A stretch of DNA of 64,000 nucleotides from an uncultured Olsenella sp. (GTDB taxonomy: Bacteria; Actinomycetota; Coriobacteriia; Coriobacteriales; Atopobiaceae). Positions 7,903 to 12,930 of this stretch are shown one piece after another (the stretch's first letter is position 1; each line of letters begins with the position of its first letter). The notes under the pieces are model-generated. The model did not search any database. It saw only the letters and a list, made by a program, of their open reading frames with translations, and was not told the DNA's origin. The stretch lies in assembly GCA_900314575.1 (NCBI GenBank), contig OMVS01000002.1:1-64000 (forward strand), in the 5' to 3' direction. The translations under genes and the position numbers were made by a program.

Positions 7903-9006
7903 CTACATCCTCACGGGCATGAGCAGGTAGAGGTAGTTGATGCTCGCGTACGACTTGAAGATGGCCGGCTGCATGGCGCTCATCAGCTCGAGCGAGATGT
8001 CCTTCTCGCCCGTCGCCGCGTTGACGCAGTCGAAGACGTAGTGGTAGTTGAGGGCGATGGACATGCTCTGCCCCTCGACTTCGGCGGGGACCGTCTCGGT
8101 CGACTCGCCCTGGTCGGGGGAGCTCGCGGAGAGCTTGACGATGCCGCCGTCGGCGTCCACGTCGAAACGGACCGACGGGTTGGCGAGCGCGATGACGGAG
8201 ACGCGCTTGAGGGCGGCGGCGAGGCCGGTGAGGTCCACCTTGACCGAGGTCGTGCAGCCCTTGGGGAGGAGCTGCTTGTAGTTGGGGAAGTTGCCCTCGA
8301 TCCTGCGGGCGACGTAGGTGGTGTTGCCGAAGGAGAAGACCACCTGGCTGCCAGTGGTGCCGATGAGGAGGCGCTCGGTCATCGAGGGGATGGAGAGGGC
8401 GTCGTGGAAGACCGCGCCGGGGACGATGGCCGTGAAGGCCGCGTCGGTCGAGGAGGTCTCCGTGTTGGAGTCGCAGACGGCGAGGCGGTAGGAGTCGGTC
8501 GCGACGAGGCGGATGACGTTGTTCTCGACGGTGAGCAGCACGCCGGAGAGGATCGGGCGGGAGGTGTCCCTGCTCGTGACCTTATAGACCTTGTCGACCA
8601 TCTTGGTCAGCAGGTCGCTCGGGAGCTCGACGGAGTTCTCGAGCTCGAAGGTCGGGAACTCGGGGAAGTCCTGCGGGGCGAGGGTGTTGAGGCGGAAGTG
8701 CGACTTCTCGCAGGCGATGGTGCAGGTGCGGTCGTCGGCCTCGAAGCTCACCGCCGCGTCGGGCAGCGTCTTGACGATGTTGGCGAGGATCTTGCCGGAG
8801 ACGACGGTCTCCCCCGGCTCCTCCACGTCCGCCGCGATGCTGTGGCGGATGGATATGTTGAGGTTGGTGGACTGGAACTCGAGCGTGCCCTCCTCCGCCT
8901 TGACGTAGATGCCCGAGAGAATGGGCAGGGTGGAGTTGGAGCCCATGCCCTTGGAGACGACCCCGAGAGCCCGCTCAAGGGCGGACTGGCTGACTATGAA
9001 CCTCAA
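7903..9006 (-). CDS. dnaN: DNA polymerase III sliding clamp (beta)
   Basis: The ring-shaped processivity clamp. It has three repeated clamp folds and ends in the typical YLYLLMPVRM. I chose TTG at 9006: AGGAGG (9016-9021) is nine bases upstream of this TTG but directly abuts the ATG at 9015, leaving no spacer for that codon. The product is then 367 residues beginning (f)MRFIVSQSALERAL, which matches the family start; the ATG would add three residues. The leader of this gene contains the proposed unwinding element. Confidence 0.95.
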   Translation of the reverse strand: MRFIVSQSALERALGVVSKGMGSNSTLPILSGIYVKAEEGTLEFQSTNLNISIRHSIAADVEEPGETVVSGKILANIVKTLPDAAVSFEADDRTCTIACEKSHFRLNTLAPQDFPEFPTFELENSVELPSDLLTKMVDKVYKVTSRDTSRPILSGVLLTVENNVIRLVATDSYRLAVCDSNTETSSTDAAFTAIVPGAVFHDALSIPSMTERLLIGTTGSQVVFSFGNTTYVARRIEGNFPNYKQLLPKGCTTSVKVDLTGLAAALKRVSVIALANPSVRFDVDADGGIVKLSASSPDQGESTETVPAEVEGQSMSIALNYHYVFDCVNAATGEKDISLELMSAMQPAIFKSYASINYLYLLMPVRM

Positions 9007-9274
9007 TGCCTTCATCCTCCTATTATTTGTTCTTCTTTAATAAATAAAGAGATAGCGATAGTAATAGGTCTTGTCGAAAAGTAGAAAACTCAGCGTCTGC
9101 CCAGGTGGGCGGCCATTTTATGACGTCTGTGCATTCGTCCTCCGCTCAACGCTTTCACCTTGTCGTCGGATGTCGAAAACCTCCTTCTACACGACCTTGC
9201 GCCTTTTCCGCGCTCGTCGAAAGGATTTCTTCCGGGTTTTAACATCCCTCGACGCCCCCCGTTCCCTTGCGGCC
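9007..9274. other. Probable oriC core (dnaA-dnaN intergenic region)
   Basis: This noncoding stretch holds two exact copies of TTTTCGACA on the minus strand (9072-9080 and 9171-9179) and a near copy, CTTTCGACG (9215-9223). Going on from the 9072 box on the minus strand comes AGAC, then triplets CTA TTA CTA TCG CTA TCT CTT (9067 down to 9047), then an AT-rich run to about 9022. Box, short spacer, then CTA-like triplets and AT-rich DNA is the layout of the basal unwinding element described for B. subtilis (DnaA-trio). No canonical TTATCCACA was seen. Confidence 0.75.
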
Positions 9275-10894: not shown

Positions 10895-11056
10895 GCGCGC
10901 CCCTGACCTCCGGTGCCCCTCCGGCTACGTTCCTCTTGTTGAAAACCTCGCCGCGAGGCAAGGGAATCAACAGTATATGATGAAAACTTCCCGCCGCGGG
11001 CGTTGACGGCGTTGAAATGTGGGAAGTCGCCATCGGGCCGAGGGGGCTCCGGCAGC
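10895..11056. promoter_or_regulatory. dnaA upstream region with DnaA-box-like repeats
   Basis: A 162-bp noncoding gap. It contains TGTTGAAAA (10937-10945, that is TTTTCAACA on the minus strand) and the related TGATGAAAA and GTTGAAAT. There is also an inverted repeat ACTTCCC/GGGAAGT. A minus-strand -10-like TATACT lies near 10971. The repeats suggest DnaA autoregulation or an auxiliary origin cluster; this is inference. Confidence 0.5.
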
Positions 11057-12451: not shown

Positions 12452-12930
12452 CACCGCCTCCTTTGCGTGCTTGGTACTTTTCGACATTCGTTCAACGAAT
12501 GAAGAAAACCTTTCAGAAGAAAATTTCAGTGGAAGAAAGTTTTCAACAGTGGGTGAAAGAATGTCGATAAGTGCGTTGAATCGAACGTGTCGGGCTGAAA
12601 GATTCTACCACCGGACGAGAAATTACCTTGTCAGACGGCAAGTCTATTCAACTCTAGGGCAAAGATTTCTTTCACGGGCGCGCGGGTGAAAGAAAGCCTT
12701 CACGAGAGCTTTCCGCGGCGGGCGCCTGGTGATATGAGCGGCTCGGAGGAGGTGAACTCCGCGCTGGCGGGCCCTCGGATGTTTTGGCCTCCGGCTTGCG
12801 CGCTACGGAGCTCGGGCCGCTGGATCTCTGCAGGGCTCGGCGCATACTTTGTGATTCGCAAGACTACTTTTGCCAAGGCGCCCGACTTTCGCGTACTATG
12901 AGTAGAGTTTGCAGAATTGCCCAGTTGAAA
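12452..12930. other. Noncoding box cluster between rpmH and the GHKL gene
   Basis: No gene is supported here. The left half is AT-rich for this genome. It carries TTTTCGACA (12478-12486), TTTTCAACA (12540-12548), an 8-1-8 palindrome CATTCGTT/AACGAATG (12485-12501), and three copies of GTGAAAGAA (12553-12561 and 12686-12694 plus; 12667-12675 minus). The rpmH-dnaA gap is the oriC position in many Gram-positives, so this is a candidate second origin subregion. Nothing identifiable was seen between 12700 and 12930. Confidence 0.6.

Follow-up and report, generated by a model that had tools for sequence, protein, structure and literature searches.

A probable basal unwinding system with a non-standard DnaA box in the dnaA-dnaN intergenic region of an Atopobiaceae genome

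Among the closest known systems to the locus described here is the basal unwinding system (BUS) of Bacillus subtilis incC, which comprises DnaA boxes #6 and #7, a spacer and the DnaA-trios (PMC6669920, PMC10721633). Published search rules for a BUS call for a box with at most two mismatches, a spacer of at most 16 nucleotides and at least three NAN trios, and tandem boxes are the commonest arrangement (PMC8287927). With regard to the initiator, strong conservation of Asp433 across DnaA proteins from every bacterial class has been reported (PMC8235120), and I190 of B. subtilis DnaA is required for single-stranded DNA (ssDNA) binding and unwinding, the I190A exchange abolishing unwinding (PMC8287927). 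No paper on the oriC of Coriobacteriia or Atopobiaceae, or on the box sequences reported below, was found in the open-access literature searched, and the supplementary BUS table of PMC8287927 may list some of the species.

The site between dnaA and dnaN

We re-read the minus strand upstream of dnaN in the window, i.e., the whole 64-kb stretch of DNA analyzed in this work (Table 1). The original prediction had placed a box, a spacer and a run of triplets at positions 9022-9080 of this strand, and both the letters and the coordinates were an exact match. The B. subtilis-type layout, with CTA/TTA triplets separated from a box on the same strand by a short spacer, is present upstream of dnaN as proposed, the triplets reading in the same direction as the box, which comes first. 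The box is also non-canonical as had been stated, since it shows two mismatches to TTATCCACA and none to TTTTCRACA, and it lies 4 nt before the first trio. What had been missed is that another box, TTTTCTACT, lies upstream in tandem with this one, the two sharing one base (position 9080).

The predicted triplet run stood in part. Taking as proper those trios with a T in the middle on the minus strand, the strand of the boxes, only the first three are proper and contiguous, and on the complementary strand they read GAT AAT GAT, exactly three contiguous 3'-NAN-5' units, before AGC interrupts. TCG and TCT depart from this pattern without shifting the 3-nt register, and the CTA after TCG and the CTT after TCT are still in register with the run. 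The tract that follows is probably the DNA unwinding element; no 50-base stretches in the window are richer in AT than those beginning at 9017-9025, and the tract is part of such a stretch.

Table 1. Features of the predicted unwinding site and of its surroundings (positions in the window).
Feature	Sequence or content	Position	Strand	Remark
Third conserved element	ACCTGG, consensus ANCWGS	9106-9101	-	12 nt upstream of box 1
Box 1 of the tandem pair	TTTTCTACT	9088-9080	-	counterpart of B. subtilis box #6
Box 2 (the box first reported)	TTTTCGACA	9080-9072	-	counterpart of B. subtilis box #7
Spacer	AGAC, 4 nt	9071-9068	-	read off the sequence
DnaA-trio run	CTA TTA CTA TCG CTA TCT CTT, CTATTACTATCGCTATCTCTT	9067-9047	-	
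AT-rich tract	TATTTATTAAAGAAGAACAAATAAT	9046-9022	-	88% AT
Distal DnaA box	TTTTCGACA	9171-9179	-	dnaA-dnaN intergenic region; exact match
DnaA box upstream of dnaA	TTTTCAACA	10937-10945	-	exact match
DnaA box, upstream origin cluster	TTTTCGACA	12478-12486	+	near rpmH; exact match
DnaA box, upstream origin cluster	TTTTCAACA	12540-12548	+	exact match
DnaA box, upstream origin cluster	TTATCGACA	12562-12570	-	one mismatch to TTTTCNACA
dnaN		9006-7903	-	probable start TTG 9006
recF, gyrB, gyrA			-	after dnaN
dnaA	Pfam Bac_DnaA, Bac_DnaA_C	10894-9275	-	
GHKL/winged-helix gene		12487-11057	-	between rpmH and dnaA
rpmH, rnpA, yidD, yidC		from 13009	+	

The gene order around the site, rpmH-rnpA-yidD-yidC, a GHKL gene, dnaA, dnaN and recF, is that of a dnaA-type origin; apart from dnaA, dnaN and the GHKL gene, names were assigned to the genes from their order and from reading. 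The source genome (2.1 Mb in 144 contigs), whose nearest named relatives are Olsenella, Parafannyhessea, Thermophilibacter and Tractidigestivibacter, contains 12 TTTTCRACA sites, five of them within 3.5 kb around dnaA. The dnaN start is probably the TTG at 9006 rather than the ATG at 9015, which AGGAGG (9021-9016) abuts; homologues align from residue 4. The product of the GHKL gene has a GHKL ATPase domain, a Gln/Pro-rich linker and a C-terminal winged helix, with no NCBIfam equivalog, and a homologue was found between rpmH and dnaA in 42 of the 43 Coriobacteriales genomes whose upstream sequence was long enough.

Conservation of the module in Coriobacteriia

Conservation of triplets and box in close relatives had been proposed as one condition on which the prediction should stand or fall, and the site came through it strongly. 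Of 84 distinct leaders from Atopobiaceae, 75 have the boxes, the spacer and the trios in the same register, and tandem boxes followed by a 4-nt spacer and (C/T)TA TTA CTA occur in Atopobiaceae, in its sister family f10, in other families of Coriobacteriales and in other orders of Coriobacteriia. In the consensus of 59 thinned Atopobiaceae sequences, box 1 reads TT(T/A)TC-N-AC and shares one base with box 2, TTTTC-(G/T/A)-ACA, which is followed by 4 nt ending in C and by (C/T)TA TTA CTA CTA CT(G/A). Within this set, position 8 is an invariant C in both boxes, box 2 has A at position 7 in 57 sequences and C at position 8 in all 59 (C at position 6 in only one), the last base of the spacer is C in 45, and trios 1 and 2 hardly vary. 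Nearly all relatives have the 4-nt spacer as well as the pattern TTNTNNAC at the offset of box 1. The boxes are spaced 9 bp apart in f10 vs. 8 bp in Atopobiaceae, and the trio run of the present genome is weaker than that of its relatives, with three contiguous trios as against the usual five to seven.

A clear module was absent from the dnaN leader in a minority of Atopobiaceae (G020, L103, L105, and G198). The leader of the Olsenella massiliensis type (L105, L205 = G198) bears, in place of the forward module, the trio-like run GTATTAGTAGCAGC in the opposite polarity, a possible rearrangement of the unwinding site.

The distance from the trios to dnaN ranges from 39 to 97 nt, whereas the box-spacer-trio spacing is fixed, so that what is constrained is the module itself and not its distance from dnaN. 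This result bears on the proposal that the block is a promoter or regulatory element of the dnaN leader whose likeness to DnaA boxes is secondary, a proposal to which its location immediately before dnaN in these genomes and the similarity of TCGACA to a -35 hexamer lend some appeal. Besides the drifting distance, the variability of box position 6 is at odds with TTGACA, further copies of the box lie upstream of dnaA and near rpmH, and a search of the dnaN leader gave no sigma-70-like promoter, on which ground the sigma-70 reading of the leader was rejected. We consider a role of the block as a dnaN control element very unlikely.

Chance resemblance was assessed with a matrix of 40 columns derived from 74 further leaders of Atopobiaceae, the source genome being left out. 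The score of the site was 43.7 bits. When the intergenic region was shuffled 3,000 times (Markov shuffles), the maximum was 2.5 bits, and on both strands of the window the matrix matched 9050-9089 only, with nothing above 2 elsewhere; the alignment set had been gathered by searching this pattern, which somewhat inflates absolute column values and leaves the shuffle control and the single match in the window unaffected. That single match also argues against regarding the site as a remnant or an auxiliary part of the origin, with the real opening located between rpmH and the GHKL gene in the upstream cluster (12478-12700). Several box-like sites occur there, two of them exact and inverted relative to the rest, but the trio module is absent. 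Experimentally studied split origins, moreover, open between dnaA and dnaN (PMC7561715, PMC5043019), and opening in the upstream cluster thus appears improbable to a high degree.

TGTCGAA is the consensus of the Spo0A box in B. subtilis. That identity would make the TGTCGAA repeats Spo0A boxes like those of B. subtilis oriC instead of DnaA boxes, a reading with hardly any chance of being right, given that no Spo0A_C domain was found in this incomplete genome assembly (with B. subtilis as positive control) and that the variants TTTTCAACA and TTTTCTACA are equally common in relatives; the lack of this domain in the assembled genome was taken to rule it out, unless Spo0A is encoded in the part missing from the assembly.

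Set against the published rules, the site has the box, the 4-nt spacer and the three trios, together with a second box in tandem, in a pair arrangement conserved in relatives, and a place in a dnaA-associated oriC, namely the dnaA-dnaN intergenic region with further DnaA boxes. Every sequence feature by which a BUS is recognized was found in the DNA module. Its position, layout and conservation and the clustering of boxes are direct observations, and on this sequence evidence the site is very probably the BUS of this chromosome's oriC, at which opening is predicted. In two complete relatives from Atopobiaceae (G014 and G019; 20 x 20 kb each, L148-L187), GC and TA skew showed little or no polarity around dnaN, so that a skew minimum elsewhere, the other ground for refutation named in advance, was counted neither for nor against the site.

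A third element was detected upstream of the boxes. The motif ANCWGS occurs about 12-18 nt upstream of the tandem pair across Coriobacteriales, and similar hexamers were recognized by eye in other orders of Coriobacteriia. The information over eight columns amounted to 4.4 bits in Atopobiaceae, 4.7 in the other families with an offset of 8 and 6.5 in f10, vs. shuffle maxima of 0.7, 1.8, and 1.4, respectively; in f10 the element has C in 32 of 32 and G in 30 of 32 sequences. ANCWGS is absent from the published description of the BUS. By its position, the GHKL/winged-helix protein is a candidate for binding it. On the plus strand, a palindrome, CTGCCCAGGTGGGCGG, with a T-rich tail and a terminator-like score lies over the third element (9097-9112). 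A conserved hairpin at this place was discarded, the palindrome not being evident in relatives read by eye.

Changes in DnaA and at box position 6

Alignment of the dnaA product to domain IV of E. coli DnaA (1j1v) gave R-T-H-A-T-I-K-H for helix 5, i.e., Asp433 is replaced by Thr, Thr435 by Ala and Leu438 by Lys (E. coli numbering), while His434 is kept. In place of the canonical Asp433-His434-Thr435, the 31 scored Atopobiaceae DnaA C-termini have S/T/K-H-A/T, and residue 433 is S, T or K in further Atopobiaceae as well. Asp433 is kept in the other families and orders read, with the exception of some members of f10, which have Asn433.

The loss of Asp433 goes along with a shift at box position 6. 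G or T was found at this position of box 2 in 47 of 59 Atopobiaceae without Asp433 vs. 6 of 63 sequences with it, and of box 1 in 33 of 59 vs. 3 of 63, although Fisher values for these counts overstate the case, because the counts are not independent (the loss of Asp433 is one family event plus a few in f10) and because the grouping into amino (A/C) and keto (G/T) bases was chosen after the data had been seen, the Asp433 families also using A at position 6. Where Asp433 is present, position 6 is A or C in 60 of 63 (box 1) and 57 of 63 (box 2) sequences. The Asn433 members of f10, five distinct sequences from two genera, have A or G at position 6 of box 2 and never C, which gives limited independent support to the association. 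A plain division of TTTTCRACA in Atopobiaceae vs. TTTTCCACA in the rest was rejected because families with Asp433 also carry A at position 6, and the exchange of Thr435 for Ala was rejected as the cause since, in a few genomes, it co-occurs with Asp433 and position 6 is still mostly A/C.

The non-standard box is an Atopobiaceae-wide trait that correlates with the loss of Asp433. Whether the helix change (loss of Asp433, with residues 435 and 438) caused the relaxed or shifted requirement at position 6 we judge to be about an even bet. A and C each present an amino group from which Asp can accept a bond, and the loss of Asp could therefore relax the choice between these bases and the others; against such a contact as the cause, Asp433 has been assigned to box position 7, not 6 (PMC8235120), and position 7 is unchanged in Atopobiaceae.

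The surface of DnaA that binds ssDNA has also changed. In an alignment to 8btg, the equivalent of B. subtilis I190 in the ISM is Ser, a residue that is not hydrophobic; of 31 Atopobiaceae, 22 have T, S or R at this position, and of 24 genomes from other orders of Coriobacteriia, 23 have I or V. The arginine finger (B. subtilis R264) is retained, SRFEW aligning with SRLDS. Because DnaA thus differs from the canonical initiator at both of its DNA-contacting surfaces, we class the site as a BUS variant.

Proposed opening and comparison with known systems

By analogy with B. subtilis and H. pylori, domain IV would load DnaA onto the two tandem boxes (9088-9072), and the AAA+ domains would extend as a filament on the complementary strand (3'-GAT AAT GAT...), starting 4 nt past box 2. 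The filament would stretch this strand, and the duplex would open into the AT tract before dnaN. As suggested in the original prediction, opening and dnaN expression might interfere with each other. Opening would depend on CTATTACTA and on both boxes, and the remainder of a split origin would consist of the distal boxes in the dnaA-dnaN intergenic region and upstream of dnaA. A joint reading goes further: both DNA-contacting surfaces of DnaA would have been rewired in Atopobiaceae, the double-stranded one by the loss of Asp433 with the position-6 shift and the single-stranded one by the loss of the hydrophobic ISM residue, with the BUS layout kept and ANCWGS of Coriobacteriia bound by a further origin factor, possibly the GHKL/winged-helix protein. 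We put this combination forward as a tentative and rather doubtful one.

As a BUS, the site belongs to a known kind, and what makes it a variant is the family-wide shift of box and initiator. It offers a natural case in which a conserved base of the DnaA box and Asp433 have changed together while the trio module stayed, and it makes both DnaA-box recognition and the dependence of origin opening on the hydrophobic ISM residue testable. Tools for finding origins gain TTTTCRACA as the likely box of a gut-dwelling family, and ANCWGS points to an order-wide origin element outside the published BUS description.

Among the systems compared, the oriC2 of Helicobacter pylori and other Epsilonproteobacteria (PMC8235120, PMC5043019) likewise combines a lineage-specific box, altered helix-5 residues and an adjoining trio run; there, however, the core is TTCAC, position 5 is changed and Asp433 is kept, whereas here position 6 is changed and Asp433 is lost. 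The oriC2 of Clostridioides difficile (PMC7561715) shares the rpmH-dnaA-dnaN context, the split origin and the trios before an AT-rich element upstream of dnaN, but it has canonical TTWTNCACA boxes and keeps D405, the equivalent of Asp433. As in B. subtilis incC, two tandem boxes in the same orientation, a short spacer, CTA/TTA triplets on the same strand and an AT tract are found between dnaA and dnaN. Unlike in incC, the boxes are TTTTCTACT and TTTTCGACA with a 1-bp overlap, the trio run is interrupted after three, an extra ANCWGS lies upstream, and DnaA has neither Asp433 nor the hydrophobic ssDNA-binding residue.
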